A DNA stretch of 37,694 nt from Akkermansiaceae bacterium (GTDB lineage Bacteria; Verrucomicrobiota; Verrucomicrobiia; Verrucomicrobiales; Akkermansiaceae). Below, piece by piece: positions 11,077 through 35,347 of this stretch. A program made the position numbers and the translations under genes. How positions within the stretch are numbered: position 1 is the stretch's first letter; each line of letters opens with the position of its first letter. The stretch lies in assembly GCA_026461385.1 (NCBI GenBank), contig JAPJNB010000240.1:1-37694 (forward strand), read 5' to 3'. Below the pieces are notes generated by a model. That model was not told the DNA's origin, did not search any database, and saw only the letters and a program-made list of their open reading frames with translations.

Positions 11077-11122
11077 TTTCTGTTCACGCATGAGTGCCTA
11101 TTGATTTTACTGCTCCTCTCCG

Positions 11123-12682: not shown

Positions 12683-12697
12683 CGTGAATCCGTCAGG

Positions 12698-13432
12698 TCA
12701 GTGAGACTTGCTCTCATGAGCGATGGTGAGTTTTTTGATGATCGAGGCAGTGGCAGCATCGGCTAGAATCTTGTATGCTGGCTCCGTCCAATGAAATTGA
12801 TCCCCCTTGGAGAGATCCACGTGTAATGTTAAGATTGAATAAAAGTCATTCACCAAGATGTGATTGCGCTCCATCACGAAAGCGGCCATTCGGTTGTGTT
12901 CGATAATGGTGGGGTTGATTAACGGATCGAGTGTCCTCGGAATATCCTTGGATACCACCGGTGTCGTATTCGCCCAAATAACTTGTGCATCGGGGGAATG
13001 GCGTACAATTACATCGAGCAATGATTGGGTGAGTGGTTCGTAGGCACCCGATGGAATCCTGCCTTCTTGAAAACCATGCAAACCCGTATTGATATGAATC
13101 ACTGAAAATGGCCCGTGAAGGAGAACCTCCGCAAGCCGGTGGTTGTAGTTCTCAGACTGATAGTAGGGATTCGTCCATGTATCGACGTTTGCCTTGCCCT
13201 CTAGTGATTGAATCACCAATTTTCGATAGCCAATTAGGATGGAGTCGCCGACGAGTAGAACGCGGGGTAATTTGGGATCGAGATGCGAAGATTGCTGATA
13301 CTTCCAATTTCCTCCTTGTGCTTGAACTCTCCGATCTTTTTCAACTGGAGCATCCTCTGCTGCGCACGATGCGGAGTATAAGCAGGCGAGTGAAAACAAT
13401 GTTAGGAAATGTTGTGAGTGCTTGATACTCAT
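12698..13432 (-). CDS. SGNH/GDSL hydrolase, secreted
   Basis: LPRVLLVGDSILIGYRK, VIHINTGLHG, GDQFHWTEPAYKILA; preferred start MSIKHSQHFLTLFSLACLYSASCAA at 13432 (ORF track extends to 13537). Confidence 0.78.
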   Translation of the reverse strand: MSIKHSQHFLTLFSLACLYSASCAAEDAPVEKDRRVQAQGGNWKYQQSSHLDPKLPRVLLVGDSILIGYRKLVIQSLEGKANVDTWTNPYYQSENYNHRLAEVLLHGPFSVIHINTGLHGFQEGRIPSGAYEPLTQSLLDVIVRHSPDAQVIWANTTPVVSKDIPRTLDPLINPTIIEHNRMAAFVMERNHILVNDFYSILTLHVDLSKGDQFHWTEPAYKILADAATASIIKKLTIAHESKSH

Positions 13433-13476
13433 TAAAAAGTGGGGCTTTAGGACGTTTGGATTCGAACTATTATAGG

Positions 13477-18192: not shown

Positions 18193-21111
18193 TTATTTCT
18201 TTTCGGGTGGCGGCTCGAGATCTTTTGACCATCTGATTGAGTCGCGTTCGGTTGTCACAGCGTCTGTTAGAAATAAGACATCGAGATCAGCGGTTGTAAT
18301 CTCAGGTAACTTGGGATGGCTCGTTGTGTGTAGGTATTTCACAAGACTCGACCTGAGCTGTTGCAGCATCGGATCTTTAATTTCGTTGTGGGCGATGTCA
18401 GCAGCACACACCACGAGGTGGCCCGTCTCCGATTTGGCCTCAAAAATTAGTGCAAGTTTTTGATTGCGGGAAAAGGCATCGATGACCTGCACGATGGGTT
18501 TCGTTGCGTAGTTGATTTGATCGAGCACAATCGCACCGGGTGATGGGGTGAGGATGCTCCACCACTGCCAGTCGGAATGTTCAGTGGTGGGGAAATTCGC
18601 GAGGGCGGGGTGATTTTCTTGGATTAAGAGTCCCATGGTTCCAGCTTGATTGTTGAAATAGACAGGGCTCCAGAATGAGGGGAGAAAGCCTGTATCTTGC
18701 CGTTGGCGAATGGTGGCTGAGGGAGGGCAGTAAAGAACCTTACCACCGTCATGCAGGCGGGTTTTTGCATCAGTAAGAGATTGGGTCACCAGGACATCAC
18801 TCGCATTGAGCGTGGGCGTTGGCGGCAATATCCAAATTTTCCAGTGATTGATTGCGCCCGCACCGGGGGCAGAAATCTCAAGAGTTGCTTGAGTTTCATG
18901 CGTAACCTTCGCCAGAGGTGCCATGATTTCCCCTGCATCGATCCCTGCGCCAATTGGGAATGAGCGAGCGGGGAGCGTGCCTTGTGCAATGACACCCAAC
19001 TTCGGAGCCACAATTTTCCAGTGCGGTGTAATGTTAGAAATTGGGTGCTCTGAATAGTTGGTAAACTCCACCGCTGCGTGAAAGGTTTCGTTGCTCGTGT
19101 ATACCCGTTTGGGCATGCGTGCGAGCGGTACCACGGACGCACAGGCTTCACGGAACCAAGCTGGATCTACGATCCCTTTGGAATCCCAGAATGAATCTAA
19201 TAGCCCAACGTGTGCGGTTCCTTGGCCAGGGTAGTCATGAAGGTCGAGCAATTGGTAACCCGCTAAGCCTGGCGTGCGCATCGCTAGCTCCAGCTCCTGT
19301 TTATATAACTCGGCGGAAAACTTGCCCGATGCTTGGGTGAATTCAGCGGCTTGGTCGACTAGACCGCTGCGACGCAGATCGTCTTGAATCGCTTCGAGGT
19401 TGATTGGGCGGAGAACTCCAGTGTACTTTTTGATTTCTGCTAGATTAGGAAATACGTTCCACTGACCGATCTCATGCGTGATGAGCGGCAGCGAAGCCTT
19501 GTTGAGGACATTTCTAAAGTCAGAGGTGGTGTTGGGCATTTCATTGAAGAAGCTTTGGCCACGCATGCCCTCAAGCTTGCCGTTGGCCCGAAACGCCCGT
19601 TCCACCAGGAAATCATCGACGATTGGCGGGCCATCGGACTGACCGACATTGGGAGGTGCGTCGAAGACCCAGAGTCGGTTAGATGTCATGGAATACAATC
19701 TCCGAGTATCCGCCGTACGAAGATCGCCCAAGAATTGTTGGAGAAATGGATACTGGCCGTGAAGCTCGTTGCCTAACGAAAAGAGAAGGAATGAGGGATG
19801 ATTTCCATAGGTTTGAACCATGCGTTTCGCCTCGTTACGCACCCATTGGGTCCGGATGTCATCGCCGGCCTTACCGAGATCACCGACCCACAGCGGCAAC
19901 TCCGCTTGCAGATAGATTCCTTCCTCATCGGCTGCGGTGAAGCACGCATCAGGTGGGCAGTAGGAATGAAAGCGCATGTGATTGAGGCCCCATGATTTGA
20001 TAATCTTAAAAATTCTGCGCCAATCTTCCACTGCGGTGGGTGGATGACCGGTTAAAGGGAAGGATGCCCCTTCGTGAGTCCCACGTAAGAAAATTGGCAA
20101 ATTATTCAAAACAAGGGATTTGCCTATATTTGAAATTTTCCGGAAGCCAAATCGTGTCGCTCGGTGGTCGGAGGAGCCCGTCTGATCGGTGAGGGTTAGG
20201 TCGAGTGTGCAAAGGTTTGGGTGAAACTCGCTCCAGAGTGGGATTGTTTTGAACTGGGTCAGGTCGATGGTGATGGTGCCAGCTTGCGCGTTCCATGCAG
20301 CGGGCAGGGTGATTTTCATGCTGGATTCACTCCCGTTAGAAGGTCCCATCAGTTGTGCCACGAGCGTGCCATTGCCAGCAGTCGCCGAGGCGTTTCCAAT
20401 CACGATCGTTGCGGATGCCTTTGCGGGATCCGGATCGATTGAAACACGATCGATCCAAACCAAGGGTGTCGCTTTAAGTTCGATTTTTCCGATGATCCCA
20501 TTCCAGATCGATTGCGTGTCTTCGATGTATGCGTGGGATCGACCGGTATCGATGAGCGGTCGATTGTCCACACGGATGACCAGTTCATGGGATCCTGGAG
20601 TCGCCGTGTGGCTCAGATCAAACAGGTGTGGAGTCGACAGCGAGTCCTGACGACCGCATTCTTTTCCATCGAGCCATACTTGGCTTTCCCATAGGACTCG
20701 TTCAAGCGTGAGAGTGATGCGTTGATTCGACCAATCGGCGGGAATTTCAATGCTGCGACGATAATACACCGCGCCAATGTAGGAATTTTTTCGATAGAGT
20801 CGGGAAAGTCCATCTTTTCCCATGGCTGGCATGGTGGCGAGCGGGATTCCGAGGCCCGCCTGATCGGTTGTTCCGGGTAAGTCCATGGACTGGTCAAAAT
20901 GTGCATCAATTGCAGTCCAATTCTGGCTTTGACCGATAGATTTCGGGTCAAGACGAACCTGCCAGTTGCCGGCAAGGGACTGAATCCTATCGCCAGCGTG
21001 CGATCGGGGTGTACCCACCGAAAATAAGGCCGTGAAAATGCTGAGTAAGAAGAGCCATGCTCGGGCTCGTGTGCTGAAAGAAGTCATGGAATTTCGAGAG
21101 CCAAAAAACAT
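18193..21111 (-). CDS. Glycoside hydrolase family 2 (beta-galactosidase/glucuronidase-like), secreted
   Basis: 972 aa; GH2 architecture (sugar-binding, Ig-like, TIM barrel); acid/base LFSLGNELHG and nucleophile-like LITHEIGQW. Start may be ATG 21087 (MTSFSTRARAWLFLLS). Confidence 0.85.
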   Translation of the reverse strand: MFFGSRNSMTSFSTRARAWLFLLSIFTALFSVGTPRSHAGDRIQSLAGNWQVRLDPKSIGQSQNWTAIDAHFDQSMDLPGTTDQAGLGIPLATMPAMGKDGLSRLYRKNSYIGAVYYRRSIEIPADWSNQRITLTLERVLWESQVWLDGKECGRQDSLSTPHLFDLSHTATPGSHELVIRVDNRPLIDTGRSHAYIEDTQSIWNGIIGKIELKATPLVWIDRVSIDPDPAKASATIVIGNASATAGNGTLVAQLMGPSNGSESSMKITLPAAWNAQAGTITIDLTQFKTIPLWSEFHPNLCTLDLTLTDQTGSSDHRATRFGFRKISNIGKSLVLNNLPIFLRGTHEGASFPLTGHPPTAVEDWRRIFKIIKSWGLNHMRFHSYCPPDACFTAADEEGIYLQAELPLWVGDLGKAGDDIRTQWVRNEAKRMVQTYGNHPSFLLFSLGNELHGQYPFLQQFLGDLRTADTRRLYSMTSNRLWVFDAPPNVGQSDGPPIVDDFLVERAFRANGKLEGMRGQSFFNEMPNTTSDFRNVLNKASLPLITHEIGQWNVFPNLAEIKKYTGVLRPINLEAIQDDLRRSGLVDQAAEFTQASGKFSAELYKQELELAMRTPGLAGYQLLDLHDYPGQGTAHVGLLDSFWDSKGIVDPAWFREACASVVPLARMPKRVYTSNETFHAAVEFTNYSEHPISNITPHWKIVAPKLGVIAQGTLPARSFPIGAGIDAGEIMAPLAKVTHETQATLEISAPGAGAINHWKIWILPPTPTLNASDVLVTQSLTDAKTRLHDGGKVLYCPPSATIRQRQDTGFLPSFWSPVYFNNQAGTMGLLIQENHPALANFPTTEHSDWQWWSILTPSPGAIVLDQINYATKPIVQVIDAFSRNQKLALIFEAKSETGHLVVCAADIAHNEIKDPMLQQLRSSLVKYLHTTSHPKLPEITTADLDVLFLTDAVTTERDSIRWSKDLEPPPEKK

Positions 21112-21113
21112 AA

Positions 21114-21130
21114 TTTACATGCAATGTAAA
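21114..21130. promoter_or_regulatory. Perfect inverted repeat TTTACAT-GCA-ATGTAAA, candidate operator
   Basis: 7-3-7 perfect dyad in the divergent intergenic region between the GH2 and GH43-like genes. Confidence 0.55.
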
Positions 21131-21152
21131 CGATTGATATCGGCTTAATAAG

Positions 21153-21167
21153 CGCTAATAATTAGCG
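21153..21167. promoter_or_regulatory. Perfect inverted repeat CGCTAAT-A-ATTAGCG, candidate second operator
   Basis: 7-1-7 perfect dyad in the same divergent intergenic region; AGCGCT occurs at 21151 and again 21 bp later at 21172. Confidence 0.5.
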
Positions 21168-21223
21168 ATGAAGCGCTCGAATAACCAAGTAATGTTCGCG
21201 AATAGCCCAAGAGAGATCCTGAA

Positions 21224-22276
21224 ATGAAAGCCGTTTTTAGAGTTCATGTTGCCTGCTTGTTGATGGGTGCCTTTTCTGGTGCTGCTGAGCCGCCACAGCC
21301 GTTTACCAATGACGCGTCGTTCACGAATCGTGGCATCATGATGTACGGGGATCGCTCCCCGAATGGGCACTGCAAGACCAAAGATCCGTCGGTGGTGAGA
21401 TTCAAAGGGCAATATTTCCTCTACTATTCGGTCCCTATGGGTGAGGGTCTTGGGGGCTGGCGAGTCGCGATTGCCACCAGCGCCGATCTCCTGACGTGGA
21501 GAAAGGTTCTAACAATGGAGCCAGAGCATCCGAGCGAGGCGAATGGATTTTGTGCGCCGGGAGCCATCGTGCTAGGGAACCGAGTGCATTTGTTTTACCA
21601 GACCTACGGAAATCGCGAGAAAGATGCGATTTGTCACGCGTGGTCCGACGATGGGGTGCATTTCACCCGCGAGCCGAGCAACCCTATTTTTCATCCTCAA
21701 GGGGATTGGACCTGTGGCCGGGCGATCGATGCGGAGGTGATTGCGTATGGTGACCGCTTGCTCATGTATTTCGCAAGTCGTGACCCGTCGTACGATGTAC
21801 AATTGTTAGGGGCTGCATCCGCGCCACTGAATTCTGACTTTTCGAGGTCGCAGTGGACCCAAATGGCAGATGATTCGATTTTGAAACCTGAGTTGGCATG
21901 GGAGAAAAAGTGCATTGAGGCCCCGACCGTGGTTCAGCGGGGGGATGCGCTCGTGATGTTTTATGCCGGTGCCTTCAACAATCAGCCGCAGCAAATTGGC
22001 TCTGCCATCAGCCACGATGGAATCCATTGGGAGCGGCTTGCTGATGAGCCATTTCTGCCGGTCGGCAAAGCGGGGGATTGGAATTCGAGCGAATCGGGTC
22101 ATCCGGGTTTCTTCAAGGACGACGATGGAAAGTCCTATCTATTCTATCAGGGCAACCAAGATGGGGGGAAGTCCTGGTATTTGTCGAAGGTCGAGATTGG
22201 CTGGAATGGGAATAAGCCATTGGTGATGCCGCGCACTAACACGAATGCTATTGACGTACCCAAGGCTAAGCCATGA
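21224..22276 (+). CDS. GH43/GH117-like five-bladed propeller glycosidase, secreted
   Basis: 350 aa; CKTKDPSVVRFKGQYFLYYSVP, ATSADLLTWRKV, FCAPGAIVLGNRVHLFYQTYG, ISHDGIHWERL propeller motifs. Confidence 0.75.
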   Translation: MKAVFRVHVACLLMGAFSGAAEPPQPFTNDASFTNRGIMMYGDRSPNGHCKTKDPSVVRFKGQYFLYYSVPMGEGLGGWRVAIATSADLLTWRKVLTMEPEHPSEANGFCAPGAIVLGNRVHLFYQTYGNREKDAICHAWSDDGVHFTREPSNPIFHPQGDWTCGRAIDAEVIAYGDRLLMYFASRDPSYDVQLLGAASAPLNSDFSRSQWTQMADDSILKPELAWEKKCIEAPTVVQRGDALVMFYAGAFNNQPQQIGSAISHDGIHWERLADEPFLPVGKAGDWNSSESGHPGFFKDDDGKSYLFYQGNQDGGKSWYLSKVEIGWNGNKPLVMPRTNTNAIDVPKAKP

Positions 22277-24780
22277 GGGGTATCTTTCATCCATCAGCGT
22301 CGAGTCGATTCGCTGATAGATTTCCTAAAGTATCGATTGTTTTCGTTGCCGTGGTTGCAGCGGTAACTTTGCACGCACAGGAGGCGGCACTTCTTCAGTT
22401 TTCGGGAATCTATCCGAGCCTCGCGATGTTCAACCAAGAGGGTGAATGTGGGACGGGAGCGCTGGTTCCATGGGCGGATCGATTGTGGGTAGTGACCTAC
22501 GGACCGCATTGTCCGAATGGATCGAGTGATCGCCTCTACGAGATCACGCCTGATTTGCAACAGATCAATCGGCCGGAGAGCGTAGGTGGTACCGCAGCGG
22601 ACCGCATGATTCATCGGGAGTCCGGCCAATTGCTGATTGGGCCTTACTTGATTGATCGAGAACGAAAGGTGCGAGTTCTAACACCTTACAAAATGCCGGG
22701 TCGTTTGACTGGCGTCGCACGGCATCTCACCGACCCAGCGAACAAGGTGTACTATGCCACCATGGAAGAAGGGCTTTACGAAGTTGATGTGAACACCCTC
22801 AACGTGTCGTGCATCATTCGTGACGGGCAGTTTTCGAAATTCATGAAGCGGGGTGGGCAATTTCCGGATGCGCTTGATTCCGAGTTGTCTGGATATCACG
22901 GCAAGGGATTGTATTCGGGGCAAGGGCGGTTGGTCTACTCGAACAACGGTGAGCGGAGCAAGGAGGCAGAGGCTAGGCCGGATATCGCGAGTGGCGCGTT
23001 GGCAGAGTGGAGTTGTCATGGGAGTTGGCAATTGATACGCCGCAATCAATTCACCGACGTCACTGGGCCAGGTGGGATTTTTGGCAATTCAAATCCAGCC
23101 ACCGATCCGTTATGGAGCGTGGGATGGGATCACCGATCGCTCATTCTCATGCTGTTAGAAAACGGTGAATGGCATTCTTATCGTTTGCCAAAAGCGAGCC
23201 ATTGTTACGACGGTGCGCATGGATGGAACACCGAGTGGCCTCGGATTCGTGACATCGGTGAGCCAGACCTTCTGATGACCATGCACGGAATGTTTTGGAA
23301 ATTTCCCCGAAATTTCAGCACGACCCACGCAGGAGGGATTCGTCCACGATCATCGTATCTCAAAGTGATTGGGGATTTTTGCCGTTGGCAAGAGCGCCTT
23401 GTTTTCGGAGCAGATGATGCGGCAAAGTCTGAGTTTCTCAACAAACGTCCGGCCAAGGGTGGGATCGCTGGACCCGGGCAGTCGCAGTCAAACCTTTGGT
23501 TTACGGATCTAACCACTCCAGATCATCTTGGACCCGCGTCGGCGAGTGGTGCGGTATGGATGGACGATACCGTCGTGGATGGACAGGTTTCCGAGCCATT
23601 TTTGTTTGCGGGTTTTCACCAGCGTGCGTTGTTTATCCGCCATGGGGCGATCGACGATGTTAGGTTCGATCTTGAGATTGACGTTGATGGTAAAGATCAA
23701 TGGAAGTCGTTGCGTCAGATCGTGGTCGGCGGAGGAAAAGGAAGTTGGGTCGAGCTTGGCCGCGAGATGGTGGGCGAGTGGATTCGCATCCGTGCCGGTG
23801 GCAAGGCTCCGCATGTCACCGCGCTCTTCCAGTACACTGCGGCGGATCTTCGTCTTGCTGAATCTAGCAAAATTTTTGTGGGACTCGCAAAGATCACGGA
23901 CCGTGTTGCAACTGGCGGCCTGCTCCGTGCGCGGGGCGGGGGGAATCAGACTCTAGCAATTCAAACGACTCGCATGGATGCAGAGCAATCCAGTCGTGGT
24001 CCGCTTTATGAACTCGATGCGTCGATGAAGCTCAAACCGCTCAATGATCCTGCGGGCGAGCGAGAGATTTCCGAGGTTGCGACGATTCCTCGTGGCCTAC
24101 TTACCAGTGATGCCGCCTCCGCGATTTTTCATGATGCGGACGGGCGGGCTTGGCGATTCCCGAAAAGCGAGGCGGCCTACGATCGACTCGCGGATGGGGC
24201 GACCGTCCGAATTGCGCGTGAGGTTTGCACTGAGCGCGACCTCTTCAATTGCCATGGAACCTTCTACGAGTTGCCTGCCGAAAATGCCGGTGGCATTGCC
24301 AAAGTGCGCCCGATTGCGACTCACCATTTGAAGATCCAAGACTATGGGTCATACCGTGGCATGTTGGTGCTCACCGGGATTCAACCCGACGCCGTGAATC
24401 CTCACATCATTCATTCCGCCGACCGAGAGGCCGCAGTGTGGGTGGGCGTGGCGGATGACCTGTGGGCGCTCGGGAAACCTCGTGGAAGCGGTGGACCATG
24501 GAAACATTCTTCTGTTAGGAAGGGTATCCCATCGGATCCCTACCTCATGAACGGCTTCGACCACAAACGCCTAACACTTGAAAATGAGGGGCCGGTGGAT
24601 GCCATTTTTCATCTTGAAGTCGATCCATCGGGAGATGGAGCTTGGACGACTTTTGAGACGTATTCGTTGAAAGCAGGTGAAAGTCTCCACCGGGAATTGC
24701 CTTCGTGGTTCCAAGCCCATTGGGTCAGGCTTTCTGGTTCAGGTGACACGGTGGCCACGGCGCAACTCAGCTACGATTGA
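22273..24780 (+). CDS. Secreted protein of unknown function, propeller-like, translationally coupled to GH43-like gene
   Basis: 835 aa; hydrophobic N-terminus; ATGA overlap with the upstream stop; no recognised catalytic motif. Confidence 0.7.
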   Translation: MRGIFHPSASSRFADRFPKVSIVFVAVVAAVTLHAQEAALLQFSGIYPSLAMFNQEGECGTGALVPWADRLWVVTYGPHCPNGSSDRLYEITPDLQQINRPESVGGTAADRMIHRESGQLLIGPYLIDRERKVRVLTPYKMPGRLTGVARHLTDPANKVYYATMEEGLYEVDVNTLNVSCIIRDGQFSKFMKRGGQFPDALDSELSGYHGKGLYSGQGRLVYSNNGERSKEAEARPDIASGALAEWSCHGSWQLIRRNQFTDVTGPGGIFGNSNPATDPLWSVGWDHRSLILMLLENGEWHSYRLPKASHCYDGAHGWNTEWPRIRDIGEPDLLMTMHGMFWKFPRNFSTTHAGGIRPRSSYLKVIGDFCRWQERLVFGADDAAKSEFLNKRPAKGGIAGPGQSQSNLWFTDLTTPDHLGPASASGAVWMDDTVVDGQVSEPFLFAGFHQRALFIRHGAIDDVRFDLEIDVDGKDQWKSLRQIVVGGGKGSWVELGREMVGEWIRIRAGGKAPHVTALFQYTAADLRLAESSKIFVGLAKITDRVATGGLLRARGGGNQTLAIQTTRMDAEQSSRGPLYELDASMKLKPLNDPAGEREISEVATIPRGLLTSDAASAIFHDADGRAWRFPKSEAAYDRLADGATVRIAREVCTERDLFNCHGTFYELPAENAGGIAKVRPIATHHLKIQDYGSYRGMLVLTGIQPDAVNPHIIHSADREAAVWVGVADDLWALGKPRGSGGPWKHSSVRKGIPSDPYLMNGFDHKRLTLENEGPVDAIFHLEVDPSGDGAWTTFETYSLKAGESLHRELPSWFQAHWVRLSGSGDTVATAQLSYD

Positions 24781-24822
24781 GGTGTAGATAGATTCTAGCA
24801 GCGCAACATCGGCGCAGTGGCA

Positions 24823-26001
24823 TTATTCTAACAGATGCGCACCCCGCGAAGGACGTGATGCGAAAATTTGTGGCGTGATTCCGGTTGCCTTTACATATTC
24901 GGCACCGAGTGTTGCCGCGATCGACTCCGCGTGTTCCGATTCACACAAGGTGACCGTGGATCCGCCAAAGCCACCGCCTGTCATGCGGGTTCCGATCACG
25001 CCGCCGCTGCGGCCGATTTTACGGGCGATCTCGACCATCAGGTCAAGTTCATGGCATGAAACTTCGAAGTCATCGCGGAGCGAATCGTGGCTGGCCGCCA
25101 TGAGTGGACCGAGTGCTTCAACATCGTTTGCCGCGAGCGCGGTTGCGGCCGCGAGGGTTCTTGAGATCTCGCCGACGACATGGCGGGACCTGCGGTTGAT
25201 CGGCTCGCCGAGTGCTTCCCAATGGTCTTGCACTTCGGCAGCGGTGATATCCCTCCAGCTGGTTTTTTCGATGATCGTCAGTCCATCTTCCGTGTGTTTG
25301 CGGCGCAGTGCATAGCCGCCATCGGAGAGCTCATGATGCACCATGGTGTTTGAAATGAGCACCGTGAGACTTGGATCTTCGAATGAAACCAGCTTCGGTT
25401 CCCCCGTCTGGCAGTCGATTAGAACCAAGCGGTCTTGCTCGCCGAATGCGGAAGCATACTGATCCATGATGCCGCAGGGTACGTTGGCGAAATCATGCTC
25501 TGCCTTCTGGCAAAGAAGAGCCTTCTCCTTGGTGCCTAACTGAATTTCTAATAAGCCTTCAAGAAAAGTTGCGGTGGCGCATTCCAAAGCGGCCGACGAT
25601 GATAACCCGGCGCCCCCTGGAATGGATGAAAAGATGTAAGCGTCGAAGCCCGGAACCGGATGCCCGCGATCTTGGAAGCCACGGATCACTCCGCGCAAAT
25701 AGTTCGCCCATTTGGGTTCGCTGACCTCCTGCAATTGAGTGAGGTCCAGTGTTGCAATTTCATCGCTGATTGCCGAGCCGACTCGTGCGTTTGGGGTGCC
25801 ATTGGCGCGGCCTACGATTACGATGTAGCGGTCGATTGCAAATGGCATGACAAACCCATCGCAGTAGTCGATGTGTTCGCCGATTAGATTGACGCGTCCT
25901 GGGGCAGCGGCGGCAAGATTTGCGTTAGAGCCAAAACGGTCTGCGAACCCCGTTTTGGCGTGGTTGACGATTTCATGAAGTGTTGGATTGGGCTGAAGCA
26001 T
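24823..26001 (-). CDS. galK: Galactokinase
   Basis: GRVNLIGEHIDYCDGFVMPFAI (galactokinase signature), GAGLSSSAALECA (GHMP ATP-binding), TGGGFGGSTV; start at ATG 26001 (MLQPNPTLHEI). Confidence 0.92.
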   Translation of the reverse strand: MLQPNPTLHEIVNHAKTGFADRFGSNANLAAAAPGRVNLIGEHIDYCDGFVMPFAIDRYIVIVGRANGTPNARVGSAISDEIATLDLTQLQEVSEPKWANYLRGVIRGFQDRGHPVPGFDAYIFSSIPGGAGLSSSAALECATATFLEGLLEIQLGTKEKALLCQKAEHDFANVPCGIMDQYASAFGEQDRLVLIDCQTGEPKLVSFEDPSLTVLISNTMVHHELSDGGYALRRKHTEDGLTIIEKTSWRDITAAEVQDHWEALGEPINRRSRHVVGEISRTLAAATALAANDVEALGPLMAASHDSLRDDFEVSCHELDLMVEIARKIGRSGGVIGTRMTGGGFGGSTVTLCESEHAESIAATLGAEYVKATGITPQIFASRPSRGAHLLE

Positions 26002-26005
26002 AAAA

Positions 26006-28153
26006 TTATTCGCTTGATGGGGTCGCTGGCGATTGGTCAAGTCGCCGGCGGTAGCTTTCGACCGCTTGAGTCCAAACATGGTGCATGCTCTCCGATGGTC
26101 GAAGCCAGACCGCCCGGTGCATCATCAGCATGGCAGATGCGAGATACAGAAGCTCAGAAAGTTCATTTTTCGTAAGATGTGCGGGTCCCTCGCTCAAGCA
26201 ACGTTCGGCGAGGGCTTCTTCGCTAGGTGTCAGTTCGGTATGTTCTAACAGCGAAACGTGAACCCCATTTACATAGGGATCCACAATCGCGGCCACCACA
26301 CCGCGGCGGGCATCGATCGATGCATCAAGCGCCGGGTCCACTGCTGCCGTCGCATGGTCGGCGAGGCGGATGATTTCGGGCGGATTGATTTCCTCGGGTG
26401 TCGAAAGGATGTTGCGTTTGCCGAGCGCACGGCCGTAGCGTGAGCGGCTGGTCCAGACTGAGACGGGTGCGGATAGAATGAGGCCAGCAAGGATCGGGGT
26501 CATCCACGCCGCAAAGTTCAGGTTAATCTTGAGGGCGATGAGAGCCCAGATGATTCCGAGAATCGTTTGGGCCGAGTGAAATCGGAACGCGTCAGACCAA
26601 GCTGTGCCGTCGGTCTCGCGGTTTTGGTTGCCCCAGCCGACCGCGCGACCGCGGATGATGCTCAGCACCATCATGGTGTGCGCCAGCATGATGCAGGAAG
26701 CCAGTAGCATGGAAACGATCACCTCGATGAGGGCGCCGCAAATGATGGGGATCGCGCCACCGAATGAGCGGCGGGTGCGACCGGATGAAATTGCACCGAT
26801 CACTGCTAGAATTTTCGGCAGGAAAAGTAGAATGAAAACAAAAAGCGTTAGAAACACACTTTGTTGAATCCCGCTGATATGAAGCAAACGAGAGGAATAG
26901 TTATCAAATGGCAGCTCGCTGAGTTGGCTGGAGAAGCGGTCCCATGCTACCCAAGTTCCGAGTGCAAGAAATAGGAACCAAAGCGGGCTACTGAGGTAGG
27001 CCATGATTCCCATAAACAAGTGCATTCTAACAGAAAATGGCAACTTGCGTGCGAAGATCAACCAAAGGTGTTGGAGGTTTCCTTGGCACCAGCGGCGATC
27101 GCGGATGAGGTGATCGATGAGGGTAGGGGGTGCCTCTTCGTAGGTTCCTTCGATGTCCCATGCGAGCCAGACCTCCCAGCCTTGGCTCACCATTAGAGCC
27201 GCTTCGACGAAATCGTGACTGAGGATACGACCGCCGAATGGTTCACGGCCGGGAAGTGCGGGGAGTTCGCAAAATTCAGAAAATGGCTTCACGCGGATCA
27301 GCGCGTTGTGACCCCAGTAGCTTCCGCCGCTCAGTTGCCAGTAGTTCAACCCGCGGATGAAGAGTGGTCCGTAGAGTCGCATTGCAAATTGTTGTAGGCG
27401 GGTGAAGACGGAGATTCCACGGATCAACTTGGGCGGCGTTTGAAGGATGCCGAGTCGTGGGTAGGCTTCCATCACCCGAGTCATTTTTACGATGTCCGCG
27501 CCATCCATCAGGCTGTCCGCATCGAGCACGAGCATGGATTCGTAGCCACCGCCCCAAGTCCGGACAAAGTCGCCGATGTTACCCGCCTTGCGGTTCTCGT
27601 TGGTTTTACGACGGCGGTAGTAGATTCGGCCGAAACCGCCGAGACGGCGACAGAGGTTGGTCCATGAGGTTTCCTCCATGACCCAAAGGTCAAGGTCGCG
27701 GGTGTCGCTGAGGATGAAGAAGTCAAACGACTCGAGGGTGCCGGTGGCCTCAATCGACCGGTAGATCGCCTCGATGCGGGCGCATACCCTCACGCTATCC
27801 TCGTTGTAGACGGGGATCACCACGGCGTGGCGCTGCTGCAAAGGGCCGGCATTTTTTTCGGCAAGTTTACTAATTCTAACCGAACGTTTCCGTCCGATGA
27901 GCGTGTCAAAAGCGCCGAAGAGTGCGTGGAATGATCCGAGCACGAGGAGGCCATTGAGAATCGCAAAGATCGCCAGCAGTGGAAAGTGAGCCTTTTGAAA
28001 TCCCATCCGCCAGAAGATGTCCGCGAGCCAAAGCGTAGCGACAACATTCACCGTGAGCACACTTCCGAAGAAAATCGTGCGGCGAAGGACTGTGCGCACC
28101 GGGCTAAAAAACGGCTTGGTGGTCTCGCGGTTGGATGGAGGTGGATTTTCCAT
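26006..28153 (-). CDS. opgH: Osmoregulated periplasmic glucan glucosyltransferase OpgH/MdoH
   Basis: GT2 domain with HAVVIPVYNEDSVRV, LVLDADSLMDG, RDRRWCQGNLQHLWLI (RWCQGN), multiple TM helices; start ATG 28153 overlaps the upstream stop. Confidence 0.9.
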   Translation of the reverse strand: MENPPPSNRETTKPFFSPVRTVLRRTIFFGSVLTVNVVATLWLADIFWRMGFQKAHFPLLAIFAILNGLLVLGSFHALFGAFDTLIGRKRSVRISKLAEKNAGPLQQRHAVVIPVYNEDSVRVCARIEAIYRSIEATGTLESFDFFILSDTRDLDLWVMEETSWTNLCRRLGGFGRIYYRRRKTNENRKAGNIGDFVRTWGGGYESMLVLDADSLMDGADIVKMTRVMEAYPRLGILQTPPKLIRGISVFTRLQQFAMRLYGPLFIRGLNYWQLSGGSYWGHNALIRVKPFSEFCELPALPGREPFGGRILSHDFVEAALMVSQGWEVWLAWDIEGTYEEAPPTLIDHLIRDRRWCQGNLQHLWLIFARKLPFSVRMHLFMGIMAYLSSPLWFLFLALGTWVAWDRFSSQLSELPFDNYSSRLLHISGIQQSVFLTLFVFILLFLPKILAVIGAISSGRTRRSFGGAIPIICGALIEVIVSMLLASCIMLAHTMMVLSIIRGRAVGWGNQNRETDGTAWSDAFRFHSAQTILGIIWALIALKINLNFAAWMTPILAGLILSAPVSVWTSRSRYGRALGKRNILSTPEEINPPEIIRLADHATAAVDPALDASIDARRGVVAAIVDPYVNGVHVSLLEHTELTPSEEALAERCLSEGPAHLTKNELSELLYLASAMLMMHRAVWLRPSESMHHVWTQAVESYRRRLDQSPATPSSE

Positions 28154-28740
28154 TAGAACAAGATGAACCAGACGATCATCAGAATCGCGGCGAGCAAGGT
28201 GCCGGTGAACATCAAGCGGACGATGGGTTTGCGGTCCATGGTTTCCCACCATTGAGCTGCGCCACTGCCGATCGAATTGAGTTCAAGAGGCTTGGGAATC
28301 ATGGTCAACTCCGCGAATTGAGGGCCCGCCGCGAGGTAGGATTTCTTCATGCTTTCGACAAACTCCGAAGGCCACGGACGTGGTGTTAGAAAAACGCCCT
28401 GCCATTGCCCCGGCATCCCGGCTAGCAGGAGCGCGAGACGTCCGCGAGCGGCGAGGCGGCGATTCTCTAACGGGACATCGAGCACATCTTGAGTCCAGTC
28501 GGCCACTTCCGAGAGGGCCTCCTCCATGGCAAGCAAGCGGGCAGGCTTTTCAGGCTCAGTGACGCGGCGTTCGGAAGCGCGCCAGAGGATTCGGCGGACC
28601 AGTTCTGCCACGAGCAGTCGGTTGCGCAGACGCAGTGCCTGAAGGTATGCTTCGACAGCGGCGTAAGCTTCTTCCCACTCATTGAGCTCACCCTCACTGA
28701 GGGGGCGCAGTGTTTCTAGGGAATGACGCGGTGCACCCAT
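28153..28740 (-). CDS. Uncharacterised protein with C-terminal TM helix, between opgG and opgH
   Basis: 195 aa; overlaps opgG at its 5' end and opgH at its 3' end (TAATG); TM segment PIVRLMFTGTLLAAILMIVWFILF. Confidence 0.8.
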   Translation of the reverse strand: MGAPRHSLETLRPLSEGELNEWEEAYAAVEAYLQALRLRNRLLVAELVRRILWRASERRVTEPEKPARLLAMEEALSEVADWTQDVLDVPLENRRLAARGRLALLLAGMPGQWQGVFLTPRPWPSEFVESMKKSYLAAGPQFAELTMIPKPLELNSIGSGAAQWWETMDRKPIVRLMFTGTLLAAILMIVWFILF

Positions 28741-30266
28741 GTTTCAGTGAGGAAATTTTCGCCGCGTTTCAGGCAGCACCGCAGTTCGACGGGGCCGATG
28801 TCTGCGAGTTTGACCCCTTCGGCCGCTGGGGTGATCTGGAAGGCGACGCGATAGCGCGATTCTGGCAGCGGTTGGACGGTGATTGATTGGATCTTGACCC
28901 GATCTGAGCCTGGGCCGGTGGCCTGAACCTGAGGGGTGAGGGGGATGTCGCTTGGTTGGGAGAGCGCCCTGCCAGTGAAATCCACCGTGATCGTGCGTTG
29001 GTTGGGTTGCCAATCATGCACGCCGGTACGAGTTGCGACTACATAGCCATCTGCGATGGATGGGTCTTCTTCAAGCGTCCAATGTTGGCGGTAGGAAAAC
29101 TCGATGCGGTCACCGGGTTGTGGGGTGCGCGCAGGTTCCCACATGGCGACGGCATTGTCGGTGAGTTCGTTGGAGGCTGGGATTTCCATGAGCATCACGC
29201 GACCGGGGCCCCAGTCGGAGGTTGGCTCGATCCACAGTGAGGGCCTGAGGTGGTAGGATGCCTCGCCGTCCTCGTAGGCACTGAAGCGTCGATCCCGCTG
29301 GAGCAGGCCGAAGCCATCGCATTTCTCCATGTCGAAGAAGCTGAATTCTAACTTGCCGCTGTCATTCGAAAGCGGCCGCCAGAGGCGTTCGCCAGTGCCA
29401 GTGCGAATCGCGAGGCCATCCGAGTCATGGACTTCGGGTCGGAAGTCATCGAAGCGACGCCGCGAATTTTCGCCGAACCAAAACATGCTCGACATCGGTG
29501 CGATGCCGAGGCGCTGCACGGCGCGGCGGGCAAAAAGAACCACGCGAACGTCGACCATCGTCACATTGCCTGGATCGACCCGAAACGCAAAAGCACCCGA
29601 GTAGGATGGCCCATCGAGCAGCGCATAAATTCTGGCCTCCACGTCGTTCGGCTCGGGCTTGCGAAGCCAGAACTCGCGGAATGCAGGGAACTCTTCCTTG
29701 ACCCCCTCGGCACCTGTGTCCACGGCGACACCGCGAGATGAGATGCCATAATGCTGGTTTTTCCCTACGGCGCGCCAATAGCTCGTCCCTTGGAAAACCG
29801 CGAGTTCGTCGTAGTAGTCGGGATTATTCAGCGGCGCATGAAGGCGGAAACCCGCGAAGCCACCATCGTTCGGCAAGTCACCGCGCTTGCTGATGAGCGG
29901 GCCGTAATTGAAGTAAGCTTCCGAAAAACGAATTTTTTGTTGGTGCGTGCTGGTGAACTCATTGAGTGCGACGGGGTCGCGGAACAAATACCCTGGGTGC
30001 AAAAACATCGCTTGGAATGGCAGCTTTTCCGATGCCCAAAGCGCTTGGCTCGGATTGAACCGAATGTCGCGGTATTGGTCGTAGCTCAGCTGATTCATCC
30101 AAGCCGGCAAGCTGTCATGCTCTGGCGCGACGTAGGGTTTGTTCGCCAGATCGCGGGCCCTGCTTTGGACGCTTTCGAAGCCAACATCTTCGCGTTCCCA
30201 TGTCTGGGCGATTGCGCAAGACGTCAGTGATCCAAGTGTCGCGATCAGAATGAGTTTATTCGGCAC
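28716..30266 (-). CDS. opgG: Periplasmic glucan biosynthesis protein OpgG/MdoG
   Basis: 516 aa; signal peptide; PWMNQLSYDQYRDIRFNPSQALW, GFAGFRLHAPLN, YDELAVFQGTSYWRAVGKNQHYGISSRGVAVDT are OpgG-like. Confidence 0.92.
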   Translation of the reverse strand: MPNKLILIATLGSLTSCAIAQTWEREDVGFESVQSRARDLANKPYVAPEHDSLPAWMNQLSYDQYRDIRFNPSQALWASEKLPFQAMFLHPGYLFRDPVALNEFTSTHQQKIRFSEAYFNYGPLISKRGDLPNDGGFAGFRLHAPLNNPDYYDELAVFQGTSYWRAVGKNQHYGISSRGVAVDTGAEGVKEEFPAFREFWLRKPEPNDVEARIYALLDGPSYSGAFAFRVDPGNVTMVDVRVVLFARRAVQRLGIAPMSSMFWFGENSRRRFDDFRPEVHDSDGLAIRTGTGERLWRPLSNDSGKLEFSFFDMEKCDGFGLLQRDRRFSAYEDGEASYHLRPSLWIEPTSDWGPGRVMLMEIPASNELTDNAVAMWEPARTPQPGDRIEFSYRQHWTLEEDPSIADGYVVATRTGVHDWQPNQRTITVDFTGRALSQPSDIPLTPQVQATGPGSDRVKIQSITVQPLPESRYRVAFQITPAAEGVKLADIGPVELRCCLKRGENFLTETWVHRVIP

Positions 30267-30330
30267 AGCAGGGAAATAGTGTGGATGGGGACCTTACGTC
30301 AAGAAGCGTGATTTGCAATTCTTTCAAAAT

Positions 30331-31116
30331 TCAAGGGCTACACCCGTCATTTTTGACCGCGTGGTAGGTGATGATCCCGCCAAAATCGACGAGATCGGGG
30401 TCGGGCACCTGCCAATCAGGCTCGAAATCGAGGAAAAATCGCTCAACTCTAAACCCATGATTTTCGAGCAACGCAACCAGTTGGGCGTGCTCGAACCAGC
30501 GGATCGACTGGTGGGATTCGTGGTGCTGAGGTGGGTTTCCCGATAGAGAATATCGGTGGTCACGCTCGACGATTTGTTGCTGCTGGTCGAGGCGGTGGCG
30601 GGTTTCTAACAAGCCGGTCCGGCCATCGGGAAGTGTGACGCGGTGATCATCGTACCATTCATTTTCTGGTAGATCGCCCAGCAATTCGGCGTAGGGCATG
30701 AAGGTCGTTAGATAAAGCCCGCCGCTCGGTTCGAGCAATTGGAACCAGTGGTCAAGGACGGTAGCGGGGTCATCCGCGAGTTGGAGGGTGAATGCTGGGG
30801 CTAGCAACGCGGCGAATTTCCTTACGCTTTGCCAAGTGGCCATGTCGCCAAGGTGGATCTGCGCATGGAGGCCCAGCGCTTGCGATCGCGCCTTGGCGAT
30901 CTGCAGCATGTCCTCGGATAGCTCGACGCCCTGGACGTCGAAACCCATTTGAAGCAGCGGGAACATCAAGCGGCCGGAGCCCGCGCCCATTTCCAGTGCG
31001 GGACCTGGATGCTGACGAAGGAACTCGGCCATCAATGCGACCTCGGAGGCGTCGTCCTCGGCGTCCCAGAAGGCATCGTGCAGTTCGGCTTCAAGCGACA
31101 GGTATGGCTGGGACAT
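30331..31116 (-). CDS. Class I SAM-dependent methyltransferase
   Basis: LEMGAGSGRLMFPLLQMGFDVQGVELSEDML SAM-binding motif; preferred start MSQPYLSLEAELHDAFW at 31116 (ORF track extends to 31527). Confidence 0.82.
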   Translation of the reverse strand: MSQPYLSLEAELHDAFWDAEDDASEVALMAEFLRQHPGPALEMGAGSGRLMFPLLQMGFDVQGVELSEDMLQIAKARSQALGLHAQIHLGDMATWQSVRKFAALLAPAFTLQLADDPATVLDHWFQLLEPSGGLYLTTFMPYAELLGDLPENEWYDDHRVTLPDGRTGLLETRHRLDQQQQIVERDHRYSLSGNPPQHHESHQSIRWFEHAQLVALLENHGFRVERFFLDFEPDWQVPDPDLVDFGGIITYHAVKNDGCSP

Positions 31117-31251
31117 GGCGGCGATGGTACCTTGAAATCGGCTTGGAATGCACGGGATAATTGCACGATGCGATGCGCACTCAGACCTGCCACACGGCGA
31201 TCGTGGCAGAATTTCGCTGGAAATCCCGAGTAGCCCGCGCATGGTCAGGAC

Positions 31252-32259
31252 ATGGGGATGACGCGATTTCAAAAACTGGCGACGGCCAGCCTTGTTTCGA
31301 TGCTGCTGCTGATCTTCGTTGGCGCGGTGGTGCGGGTGACGGGGTCTGGCATGGGCTGCCCGGATTGGCCAACGTGCTGGGGCTGCTTGATCCCGCCGAC
31401 CAAGATCGAACAGGTCGACTTTTCGAAGTTGCCGATCGAGCGGTTTCAGAAAAAAGCGCAGCGCATGGGGCGGGACCCCGCCACGATCACCGTCGAGAGC
31501 CTGCGACAAGAATTCAACCCGCGTCACGTGTGGACGGAGTTTTTGAATCGCATGGCGGCGATGCCCGTTGCGATTTTGGTCATTGCCACGCTGATCGCTT
31601 CGTTTTGGCAGCGCGAGAAGCGCCCCATGGTGTTTTGGGGGGCTTTTGGCGCGGTGCTGACGGTTTTCACCAATGCCTGGATGGGTGCCCGAGTGGTTTA
31701 CAGTGGCCTCGCTCCTGGGGTTCTAACGACTCACCTCGCGCTCGCGATGGGCTTGATCGGGATGCTCGTTTATGTCGCTTGGGCTGGCTCGGATCATCCG
31801 TGGCGGATCGTGGCGGATGAAAAGTCGCGGCAGCGCTTAAAATGGATCGTGACCATTCTGTTAGTCGTCATCGTCGCAGAGGGCATCCTTGGAACTCAGG
31901 TGCGGGAAATGACCGACGAGTTGGCAAATGCCCATCGCAAAGCCCCGCGCGCGACATGGGCGCTTGAGCTTGAGCGATCCTGGGTGTACTTGGTCCACCG
32001 AAGTTTCTCGTGGGCGGTGTTAGGGCTGAGCCTTCGTGCCTGGGTTCTAACGAAGCGGCATCGCTCGAATGGTGCCGGACTCGTCGAGCGGGTGGTGTTA
32101 GGGATCGTATTTTCGCAAATGCTACTGGGTGTCGTGATGGCCCAAGTTCACATTTATTCGTGGGTGCAGGTGGTTCATGTTGGGCTGGCTGCCATTTTGT
32201 TAGCCTTCGTCTGGCTGTGGCGCTTCGGGTTGTCGGGTAAAGCCGCGAGCGATGCCTGA
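31252..32259 (+). CDS. ctaA: Heme A synthase (COX15/CtaA family)
   Basis: FQKLATASLVSMLLLIFVGAVVRVTGSGMGCPDWPTCWG, ILGTQVREMTDE, VYLVHRSFSWAVLG. Confidence 0.92.
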   Translation: MGMTRFQKLATASLVSMLLLIFVGAVVRVTGSGMGCPDWPTCWGCLIPPTKIEQVDFSKLPIERFQKKAQRMGRDPATITVESLRQEFNPRHVWTEFLNRMAAMPVAILVIATLIASFWQREKRPMVFWGAFGAVLTVFTNAWMGARVVYSGLAPGVLTTHLALAMGLIGMLVYVAWAGSDHPWRIVADEKSRQRLKWIVTILLVVIVAEGILGTQVREMTDELANAHRKAPRATWALELERSWVYLVHRSFSWAVLGLSLRAWVLTKRHRSNGAGLVERVVLGIVFSQMLLGVVMAQVHIYSWVQVVHVGLAAILLAFVWLWRFGLSGKAASDA

Positions 32260-32264
32260 CCGGA

Positions 32265-33590
32265 TCAAGGGGCATTGGCTGCGGCAAGCCCACGGCGCTC
32301 GTCGATCCGGAGCGTAAGCACCAGCCCGACGGTTAGGAAGGCAGCGAGAACCAAGAGCGCTTGTGCCGTCCCCACCGTGTCCTTGACCCAAGCGAAGGGA
32401 AATGTGGTCACGGCGGAAAGTTTCCACATCAGCCCCCAAATCCCAAAAACCTCCGCCTCGCGGTTGGGAGGAGCCATGTAGCTGACAAAGGCGCGGTTGG
32501 ATGAGCCGAGCGAACCGAGCCCGAACCCTAGCAAATTGCCAATCAGCCAAAGCGGCCACGTCGGGTAAATCCCAGCAACGCCACTCCGCACGTGGACCTC
32601 ATGGAGGTGGGCGTAAAGCGCAAATCCCAGTGCCGTCAGCAACCAAATTACGAGGAATATCACCACCGAGCGTCGGTGGCCAAGCCGGTCTTGATAGAGA
32701 GTCGGGACGATCGTTCCAATGATCCCTGAAACGGTGATCACGGCGACAAACACCACGAGATCGACCTGCTGAAATCCGTATTCTGCGGCGAGCTTGCTTG
32801 CAAAGAAAACCACCACGCTCATGCCGGTGCCGTAAAAGAGCGAGCTGAGCATGAGCAAACCGAGGTCGCGGTAGCGGGTGAACTCCCGCAGTGTTTCCGC
32901 CAGCCGAACGAATCCTGCGGTCAAAAGATTGCGGCCAGGATGCAGGGTTCGCACCACGTGTGGCTCTTCTAGCCAAAGATAAGTTGGAATGGTGAAAGCC
33001 ATGAACCACAACCCCGCAAACACAAAAAACGGCCGCCACGCATTGGCCGCTTCCAGATGAAAAAAGATCATGGCACCGGCGGTTAGAATGAGAAGTACGA
33101 GGGCGGCACCGTAAGCGCAGGCCCACGAGAACCCGCTGACACGCCCGACCTGATCGGGTTTCGCCAAGCTCGGAAGAAAGCTTGCGAGAAAATTTTCACC
33201 GATCGAAAAGGCAAAGTTGGCCGGAACATAAATCAACACGGCCCACCCGATCTGACCGGGCTGGATCCATCCGAGCGCACAAGTGAGCAGTCCGCAAATC
33301 AGCCCTGAGCCGATCAGAAACCGCTTTTTCCAGGCTCGTTCGTCGGCCGCCGCTCCGGCAATCGGCGAGACGAGCGCGGTGAGTAGCATGCTACCGCCGT
33401 AGGTGAGCGCCCAGATCCGGTCGTCGATGGCGTCATTTTTAACGACCACCTGAGAGAAAAAGATCGAGAACAACAGGGTGTTGATGATCAACGTGAACGA
33501 TTGGTTTGCTACGTCGAACGAGATCCACGCCCAAAGCTGCCGTTGGTGGGGAAGTTGGGCCAAGGGGTAAAGGCGGCGGAGGATCTTCAT
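32265..33590 (-). CDS. MFS transporter, UMF1/Atg22-like
   Basis: Multiple TM; WAWISFDVANQSFTLIINTLLFSIFF, SPIAGAAADERAWKKRFL; start ATG 33590 (ORF track extends to 34052, overlapping the HIT gene). Confidence 0.82.
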   Translation of the reverse strand: MKILRRLYPLAQLPHQRQLWAWISFDVANQSFTLIINTLLFSIFFSQVVVKNDAIDDRIWALTYGGSMLLTALVSPIAGAAADERAWKKRFLIGSGLICGLLTCALGWIQPGQIGWAVLIYVPANFAFSIGENFLASFLPSLAKPDQVGRVSGFSWACAYGAALVLLILTAGAMIFFHLEAANAWRPFFVFAGLWFMAFTIPTYLWLEEPHVVRTLHPGRNLLTAGFVRLAETLREFTRYRDLGLLMLSSLFYGTGMSVVVFFASKLAAEYGFQQVDLVVFVAVITVSGIIGTIVPTLYQDRLGHRRSVVIFLVIWLLTALGFALYAHLHEVHVRSGVAGIYPTWPLWLIGNLLGFGLGSLGSSNRAFVSYMAPPNREAEVFGIWGLMWKLSAVTTFPFAWVKDTVGTAQALLVLAAFLTVGLVLTLRIDERRGLAAANAP

Positions 33591-33683
33591 TGGCAGTGGC
33601 AGGGTTATAGCGAGATTTACGGGCACGGCAAGAAATGCCATCCGTGAGTGACATCCCGCACCGATTCTGCCAGCGTGGCGCTC

Positions 33684-34094
33684 ATGGCATTTGAACTCCA
33701 CCCACAACTTGAAGCCGGATGCGACGAACTCGGCAGGCTCGGTGGCTGCCGACTTCTTCTGAAGAACAACGCGATTTTCCCATGGCTGCTTCTCGTCCCG
33801 GAGGTCGACGGCATCGAGGACCTCCACCAACTTCCCGCAACGCAGTACGATGAAGTCATGGCCACGGTCCGCCGAGTCTCGGAATTTGTCGCAGCATACT
33901 TCCAGCCCGAGAAGCTCAACGTCGCCTGCATCGGCAACGTCGTCCGCCAAATGCACCTGCACATCGTGGGGCGCTCCGCCGATGATCCCGCATGGCCGGC
34001 CACCGTTTGGGGCTTCGATGGGAAAAAGCCTTACAGCGACGAGGAAAAGCACAAGATCCGCTCCGCCGCGCGCAGTTTTCTCGGCCTCCCGTGA
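33684..34094 (+). CDS. HIT family protein
   Basis: FPWLLLVPEVDGIEDLHQLP...NVVRQMHLHIVGR; HxHxxx histidine triad region; start probably ATG 33684 (MAFELHPQ). Confidence 0.82.
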   Translation: MAFELHPQLEAGCDELGRLGGCRLLLKNNAIFPWLLLVPEVDGIEDLHQLPATQYDEVMATVRRVSEFVAAYFQPEKLNVACIGNVVRQMHLHIVGRSADDPAWPATVWGFDGKKPYSDEEKHKIRSAARSFLGLP

Positions 34095-34177
34095 GGGGGA
34101 TGAAAAAATCCCGCCCTAGGATTGACGGAATCAGTCGATCCCGCTGACACTCGCTGCCCGCCATCGGCGGATTGTTC

Positions 34178-35347
34178 ATGGACTACCAATCGAAAATTGC
34201 CACCAACGTCGCCTCCATCCCGCGCTCCGGCATCCGCGACTTCTTCGAACTCGTCCAAGGCCGCGATGACGTGATCTCGCTCGGCGTCGGCGAGCCTGAT
34301 TTCGTCACGCCATGGCACATCCGTGAGGCCGCCATCTATTCACTCGAAAAAGGCCAGACCACCTATACCTCCAATCTCGGCCTGCTCTCACTTCGTAAAT
34401 CGATCGCGAAATACGTCGGCGACTTTTTCCACGTGGAGTACAACCCCGCCACCGAAGTACTCGTGACCGTCGGGGTCTCAGAGGCCATCGACATCGCACT
34501 CCGCGCACTGCTCAATCCGGGCGACGAGGTGATCTATCACGAGCCTTGTTACGTTTCCTACAGCCCGAGCATCGTGATGGCGCACGGTGTGCCGGTGCCC
34601 GTCCTCACGACCAAGGAGGATGGATTCTCGATGAAGCCGGAAAAACTTGCGGCCGCCATCACGCCAAAGACCCGGGTGGTTTTCATCAATTTCCCGACGA
34701 ATCCCACCGGAGCCTGTGCCTCGCGCGAGGACCTCGAGGGCATCGCAAAACTCGCGATCGAGCATGACCTGATTGTTCTAACGGACGAGATCTACAGCGA
34801 GCTTCGTTACGACGAGACCGACCCACACGTTTCCATCGCCGCGCTTCCGGGCATGAAGGAGCGCACGATTTTACTGCACGGATTTTCCAAAGCCTTCGCC
34901 ATGACCGGATTCCGGCTAGGCTACGCGTGCGCACCGCAGCCGATCATCGAGGCGATGATGAAGATCCACCAGTACTCGATGCTCTGCGCGCCGATCATGA
35001 GTCAAAACGCCGCGATCGAGGCGTTGGAAAACGGGCAGCCTGCGATGATCGAGATGCGCAACAGCTACCACCAGCGGCGGGATTTCCTCGTGAAACGCCT
35101 CAATGAAATCGGGCTGGACTGCCATCTTCCCGGCGGTGCGTTTTATGTGTTTCCGGACATCCGCAGCACCGGTCTAACGAGTAAGGAGTTTGCGATGCAG
35201 TTGCTGGAGCAAGAAAGTGTCGCCTGCGTGCCGGGCAGCGCCTTTGGTGCCTCGGGCGAGGGGTTCTTGCGGTGTTGCTATGCGACCGCGTTTGACGACA
35301 TCCGCACCGCCACCGATCGGATCGAGCGCTTCGTCGGCAGACTTTGA
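34178..35347 (+). CDS. Class I/II PLP-dependent aminotransferase (aspartate aminotransferase-like)
   Basis: VVFINFPTNPTGA, LTDEIYSELRYD, LHGFSKAFAMTGFRLGY (PLP lysine). Confidence 0.92.
   Translation: MDYQSKIATNVASIPRSGIRDFFELVQGRDDVISLGVGEPDFVTPWHIREAAIYSLEKGQTTYTSNLGLLSLRKSIAKYVGDFFHVEYNPATEVLVTVGVSEAIDIALRALLNPGDEVIYHEPCYVSYSPSIVMAHGVPVPVLTTKEDGFSMKPEKLAAAITPKTRVVFINFPTNPTGACASREDLEGIAKLAIEHDLIVLTDEIYSELRYDETDPHVSIAALPGMKERTILLHGFSKAFAMTGFRLGYACAPQPIIEAMMKIHQYSMLCAPIMSQNAAIEALENGQPAMIEMRNSYHQRRDFLVKRLNEIGLDCHLPGGAFYVFPDIRSTGLTSKEFAMQLLEQESVACVPGSAFGASGEGFLRCCYATAFDDIRTATDRIERFVGRL

Follow-up and report, generated by a model that had tools for sequence, protein, structure and literature searches.

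The window analysed here is a stretch of 37,694 nucleotides (contig JAPJNB010000240.1). It came from a Verrucomicrobiales metagenome bin (named Akkermansiaceae at NCBI), and the closest relatives of its MdoG protein were found in metagenome bins named Akkermansiaceae (96–97% identity). A short word, TTCTAAC (GTTAGAA on the other strand), is dispersed over the window. A previous inspection of the letters, here called the sequence-only reading, had listed 22 copies, and a pattern search recovered all 22. Dinucleotide shuffles of the window gave a mean of 2.1 copies and a maximum of 7. The copies had been described as lying on both strands and in different frames and as being spelled with rare codons. 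This was confirmed, as all 22 are located in open reading frames (ORFs) and encode SN (TCT AAC), LE (TTA GAA), VR (GTT AGA) or LT (CTA AC).

The SN spelling was observed at 3095..3101 (plus strand; GAT TCT AAC, DSN) and, on the minus strand, at 19033..19039 (TTCTAACA) and 20335..20341. The LE spelling was observed at 7523..7529 (minus) and at 29346..29352 (plus; MdoG ORF). It was preceded by another leucine codon, giving LLE, at 23154..23160 (minus; TTCTAACAG, CTG TTA GAA), 26243..26249 (plus; TTCTAACAG, CTG TTA GAA) and 30604..30610 (plus; TTCTAACA, TTG TTA GAA). At 24826..24832 (plus; TTCTAACAGA), CTG TTA GAA TAA forms the end of a galactokinase-like ORF. The VR spelling was used at 8464..8470 (minus; TTCTAACAG), 27025..27031 (plus; TTCTAACAGA) and 27874..27880 (plus; TTCTAACCGA). 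LT was spelled CTA ACA at 13976..13982 (minus; TTCTAACA), 18266..18272 (minus; TTCTAACAGA), 21507..21513 and 22676..22682 (both plus; TTCTAACA), and 28385..28391 (minus; TTCTAACA). It was spelled CTA ACG at 26847..26853 (minus), 31721..31727 (plus; CtaA/COX15 ORF), 32045..32051 (plus) and 34776..34782 (plus; aminotransferase ORF), and CTA ACC at 33082..33088 (minus; TTCTAACCG). Both sister genomes keep the copies at 23154, 27874 and 31721.

Further copies are in a register shifted by one base from TTCTAAC and read TCTAACA, CTAACAG or CCTAACA. On the plus strand they are located at 5901..5907, 9223..9229 and 24570..24576 (CCTAACA). On the minus strand they are located at 10789..10795, 13400..13406, 13880..13886, 14598..14604, 18020..18026, 21804..21810, 23658..23664 (CCTAACA), 24512..24518 (CCTAACAGA), 31858..31864, 32018..32024 (CCTAACA) and 32096..32102 (CCTAACA).

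The rate in the source genome predicts about 9.8 heptamers in the window, where 22 were seen (Poisson p = 5e-4). The window density is about twice the genome average of 0.26 per kb. Eighteen copies had been placed in about 16.5 kb; 18 of the 22 do lie in the right half, which amounted to a mild excess only (p = 0.005). Alignment indicated that the right half is collinear with the two sister genomes from about 22 kb onward. The claim of fairly even spacing did not hold. The coefficient of variation of the gaps was 1.04 in the source genome, which is Poisson-like, and 1.32 in G045, the richest member of the genus, where copies are clustered.

Two gene groups in the window were recorded separately. 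Two adjoining large autotransporter-like proteins with passenger-associated transport repeats (297-6117) are followed by an N-methylation pilin-like protein and two GDSL lipases. A glycosyltransferase-2 and MdoG form an osmoregulated periplasmic glucan locus (26006-30266), which is kept in the sister bins.

Enrichment on the DNA level

All genomes used were metagenome bins, and the word was found by sequence statistics. In the source bin (3.79 Mb, 273 contigs), TTCTAAC occurred 985 times and its reversed control 439 times. For TCTAACAG, whole-genome counts against the reversed control were 433/90 in the source genome, 1288/65 in G045, 1470/60 in G190 (another genus), 714/184 in G170 and 464/93 in G152. 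These counts are free of contig-choice bias. In word-carrying environmental Akkermansiaceae, the excess of TCTAACAG over chance is hundreds to more than 1000 copies per genome.

Codons within genes were then shuffled synonymously. CTAACAG on the same/opposite strand of genes numbered 97/190 in G045 against 6.4/18.2 after the shuffle, and 38/49 in the source genome against 3.9/5.0. The coding excess was 11.7-fold and 9.8-fold, respectively; these counts used re-called genes, with calling by a simple script. Non-coding DNA contained 18 copies against 2.1 expected in G045 and 10 against 1.7 in the source genome. The main heptamers in non-coding DNA of both genomes were 6-14 fold over the order-2 expectation, and a reversed-type control word gave a ratio near 1. 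As with uptake sequences, the DNA-level excess was genome-wide and extended to both strands and to non-coding as well as coding DNA. The source-genome sample came partly from contigs known to hold copies, which biases its densities upward but not its shuffle ratios.

The dipeptides LT, LL, VR and SN were raised slightly at most, and the idea of a proteome cost was rejected on this ground. About 40-46% of TTA and CTA codons sat in the word core in G045 and the source genome, and 67-75% in a G018 sample; these shares came from the first gene caller, which covered 53% of the source-genome sample. The order-2, order-3 and synonymous-codon nulls all rejected chance. The sequence-only reading had named a frequency at the order-5 Markov expectation as a refutation, and nominally this was what we obtained (126 observed, 124 expected). 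The test was uninformative, since the word itself raises the counts of TTCTAA and TCTAAC, the hexamers nested in the heptamer. The reading's claim of selection on DNA rather than protein was supported, as the codon-shuffle nulls, the non-coding enrichment and the silent-site conservation described below agreed. These results supported selection (or drive) acting on the DNA.

Core, flanks and dialects

To rank k-mers, we used samples of 297 kb from the source genome and 215 kb from G045. TCTAACA, CTAACAG, TTCTAAC and CCTAACA were top or near-top k-mers in both. The best-enriched words were TCTAACA, CTAACAG and TCTAACAG. The 8-mers TTCTAACA and TCTAACAG occurred 71 and 48 times in the source-genome sample and 101 and 106 times in the G045 sample, with 1-2 expected. 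TTCTAAC was rejected as the natural unit; it is an off-register slice of the enriched unit YCTAACAG.

An expectation-maximization (EM) fit in G045 gave WYCTAACAGAW with 12.4 bits and about 1.9 sites per kb. The fitted consensus in this strongest genus member was YCTAACAGAW, with a strict core CTA-D-C (CTA[A/G/T]C). The fit in the source genome was weaker (TCTAaCag), and EM on smaller or GC-rich samples drifted toward codon periodicity. Flanks past the EM motif were at background level, indicating that the copies are not fragments of a larger repeat.

Substitutions were counted in G045, where TCTAACAGA had 62 copies against 0.7 expected. Single changes at C2, T3, A4 and C6 left 0-2 copies. Changes at positions 1, 5, 7, 8 and 9 mostly remained 7-90 fold enriched; A, G and T were all accepted at position 5, and positions 1, 7, 8 and 9 were tolerant. 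The substitution spectrum and the EM fit both showed an invariant inner core with tolerant flanks, as in uptake sequences, and such behaviour is that expected of a recognition site. The word is not palindromic. Its arms TCT...AGA are symmetric, and the asymmetry of the core (A..C) was strict in G045. A helical or paired arrangement was not supported; the spacing histogram was too sparse, and intervals were mostly codon multiples of 3.

Exact counts of TCTAACAG in 195 genomes of the family showed a strong excess in members of g1, g24, g27 and g29 and one that was milder in g28, while g26, g33 and g21 were in deficit. The genomes of g21, a genus that is probably gut Akkermansia, are nearly complete and measure 2-3.5 Mb. 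Samples of G190 (44% GC), G170 (62% GC) and G152 (52% GC) all had TCTAACA as their top 7-mer, and it was top or near-top in four genera spanning 44-62% GC. It was essentially absent from a G138 sample (59% GC), and G100 had only 6 CTAACAG in 2.3 Mb. With few exceptions, the heptamer was not enriched in other families of Verrucomicrobiales. Flank preferences varied between related species while the core was kept, as in the dialects of uptake sequences. The ratio of TTCTAAC to CTAACAG was 1222:450 in G018 and 416:1109 in G002. G018 favours CTAACCG, and G021 (a small sample) favours CCTAACAG.

Other repeated words and elements were also seen. GGAAAT, GATTTCC and GGATTTCC were about 1.5-2 fold over codon shuffles in the tested genus genomes, and these words were also high in the k-mer lists of genomes without the CTAAC word. 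A UBA1315 bin (L049:1-21533) carries a second iterated word, the palindrome AACCGGTT / AACCGGT, which is dispersed and HIP-like in look (47 heptamer matches, 7 expected). An element of about 220 bp (L166:17560-17777) recurs several times, at 82-85%, on other G000 contigs. Similarly, a dispersed 124-bp element (L165:1-124, 1009-1430) has 97% copies in G112. G006 contains dense short CGAACATCGAAC and GAGACCTGAGGG repeats, apparently repeat arrays (L130:664-5705, 10235-13452). Two contig ends carry tandem arrays, one of 21 bp (ATTCCTAGAATTCCCGGCGTC; L043:17916-18090) and one of 9 bp (TGCTGGGAG; L044:1-91).

Silent conservation, placement and competence genes

The sisters of the source genome, G111 and G112, have 91% and 88% nucleotide identity to it. 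From the source genome to G112, TTA and CTA codons were unchanged in 28/40 cases inside the word and 24/85 outside (Fisher p = 1.4e-5). In the reverse direction the counts were 22/29 and 36/125 (p = 4e-6). The effect was weaker toward G111 (29/40 inside, 43/91 outside; p = 0.008). Some sequences enter more than one of these comparisons, which makes their independence incomplete. Judged by raw 7-mers, conservation between the sisters appeared neutral, and the effect was seen only when rare codons were compared like for like. Word sites do turn over: at 9-12% divergence, no more than about half of them are the same in the sister genomes.

No polarity of orientation was found along contigs after correction for gene strand (chi2 = 32.8 with 26 degrees of freedom in G045, 15.7 with 17 in the source genome); the test was run on contigs rather than on a closed chromosome. 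In G045, same-strand copies were commoner in the last fifth of genes (60 versus 27-42 in the other fifths). Uptake sequences have an intragenic bias similar in kind (PMC2346458). Also in G045, a ligA-like gene (L014:4198-6369) contains 10 copies and a clpB-like gene (L014:11393-13987) contains 11, both names resting on a reading of protein starts. Hardly any copies lie in the ribosomal-protein operon of L013, a scarcity that could simply reflect the strong codon bias there.

ComEC was found in 70/73 genus members, DprA in 11/12 genomes and PilB/PilT-type type IV pilus ATPases in 10/10 genomes. Their presence makes DNA uptake plausible. The hosts have competence machinery, which is not specific to word-carrying genomes. 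A correlation of the word with competence genes was uninformative, as these genes are near-universal in the genus.

Interpretation and comparison with known systems

The sequence-only reading had offered four analogies. Among these the uptake-like one fitted best, and the Chi-like one was disfavoured for want of polarity. The match to uptake sequences lies in the hard core, the variable flanks, the use of both strands, the silent conservation, and the poverty of ribosomal-protein genes and richness of the ligA-like and clpB-like genes. Known uptake sequences likewise combine a short, strict core with dialects that vary, and one of their reading frames contains a stop codon (PMC3630211). The explanation that we favour is that the sites are copies of a family-wide self-marking word that works like a DNA uptake sequence (DUS), a reading to which we give an even chance. 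A broader proposal, held with slightly less than even confidence, is that Akkermansiaceae evolved their own DUS system, independent of the two proteobacterial ones. It would comprise a CTAnC-core word, dialects and a receptor, and it would have been lost or never gained in one genus, probably gut Akkermansia.

Enrichment, core, conservation, dialect-like variation and competence genes were observed; from here on we infer a receptor, biased uptake and drive. The word on naked DNA would be bound by a DNA receptor outside the cell, for which the analogy with ComP makes a minor pilin the likeliest candidate. Kin DNA would then be preferentially taken up and recombined. Biased uptake together with point mutation would spread the word (drive) and protect it from decay. 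Word-free lineages would have lost the discriminating receptor or never had it.

Several points weigh against this interpretation. ComEC and DprA are equally present in genomes without the word, such as G100, so that machinery and word do not co-vary. Inverted pairs at terminators were not seen, close pairs being mostly direct and few of them non-coding, although such pairs are not required of uptake sequences in general. The receptor was not identified, and no search for a ComP-like pilin was made. Compared with DUS or the uptake signal sequence (USS), the word shows more degeneracy and a higher density, and it is known solely from sequence statistics in metagenome bins of uncultured bacteria.

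The best-surviving alternative, though an unlikely one, is a HIP1-like (highly iterated palindrome) word that an orphan DNA methyltransferase or some modification-dependent process targets and that is kept because methylation matters or biases mutation or repair. Comparable densities are known for HIPs, whose occurrence follows that of specific methyltransferases (PMC4390886). The absence of the word from some genomes is what a patchily inherited methyltransferase would give, and the abundance of AACCGGTT in a related genome indicates that HIP-like words exist nearby. However, HIPs are palindromic and this word is not, its symmetric arms enclosing a core whose asymmetry was strict in G045. A little less likely still is a binding site, at about 1-2 per kb, for an abundant chromosome-organising or repair protein (a nucleoid protein, SMC loader or mismatch-repair-like guide). 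An all-or-none core between arms that are partly symmetric is reminiscent of a protein site, and the word makes equal use of the two strands and of coding and non-coding DNA. Known organising sites, however, occur much more rarely or show polarity along the chromosome. Flanks that vary between sister species around a constant core are more typical of uptake dialects, and the clustering in G045 singled out no special region.

A Chi-like recombination hotspot read by RecBCD/AddAB would also be a short, asymmetric word of 7-8 bases over-represented genome-wide, but we consider it improbable. Chi and KOPS (FtsK-orienting polar sequence) words point along replication, and the chance-level orientation per contig disfavours functions of both types. 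The word is also several times denser than typical Chi. A mutation or repair bias that depends on context, such as that of a Vsr-like enzyme, could make the word without any function, and the turnover of sites would suit it. We rate it marginally below Chi. Rare codons were kept two to three times more often inside the word than outside, and this retention at silent sites disfavours mutation bias alone because pure mutation pressure raises gain and does not lower loss. Four fixed core bases are also wide for a mutation context. An artefact of codon-pair or amino-acid preference or base composition is extremely unlikely, the synonymous shuffle and the non-coding counts having refuted it. Its one support, the order-5 match, comes from a model built on motif-containing words, while synonymous shuffles, non-coding counts and reversed words fail to produce the word, the dipeptides are hardly raised, and G100 and G138 lack it at similar GC.

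If the uptake-sequence interpretation is true, it would add to a short list. According to a 2025 paper (PMC12616744), self-DNA recognition by short enriched words is known only in Neisseriaceae and Pasteurellaceae. Our literature search found no paper in which this word is named in a relevant context and none linking Verrucomicrobia with DUS. A third case from another phylum, with presence, absence and dialects spread over many genera, would show that kin-restricted bacterial 'sex' evolved repeatedly. The dozens of genomes with and without the word would provide natural comparisons for finding the receptor. Even with another function, a word that is enriched tenfold, is conserved at silent sites and dictates the majority of rare-leucine codons in some genomes needs explaining, and it affects codon-usage and gene-transfer analyses in Akkermansiaceae.

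Compared with the DUS of Neisseriaceae, which is read by the minor pilin ComP, the word is likewise short and non-palindromic and is enriched on either strand, inside and outside coding DNA. It shares the strict inner core, tolerant flanks, species dialects and a stop in one frame, and its hosts also have a type IV pilus, ComEC and DprA. The differences are the core (CTAnC here, CTG there), the phylum (Verrucomicrobiota versus Betaproteobacteria), the greater degeneracy, the lack of inverted-pair terminators among the copies seen, and the putative status of receptor and uptake. Like the USS of Pasteurellaceae (core GCGG), the word occurs about once per kb, is dispersed, has a fixed core and is preserved within genes. 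It differs in sequence and phylum, USS flanks are extended and T-rich whereas only a weak 3' W was found here, and host competence is predicted only. With cyanobacterial HIP1 (GCGATCGC) it shares a very high copy number, presence in the majority, though not the whole, of a lineage, and an abundance that codon use does not explain; HIPs are perfect palindromes tied to methyltransferases, whereas this word is asymmetric and has no known methyltransferase link. Chi sites (RecBCD/AddAB) are similarly asymmetric, over-represented words of 7-8 bases, and the word differs from them in having no orientation bias along contigs.

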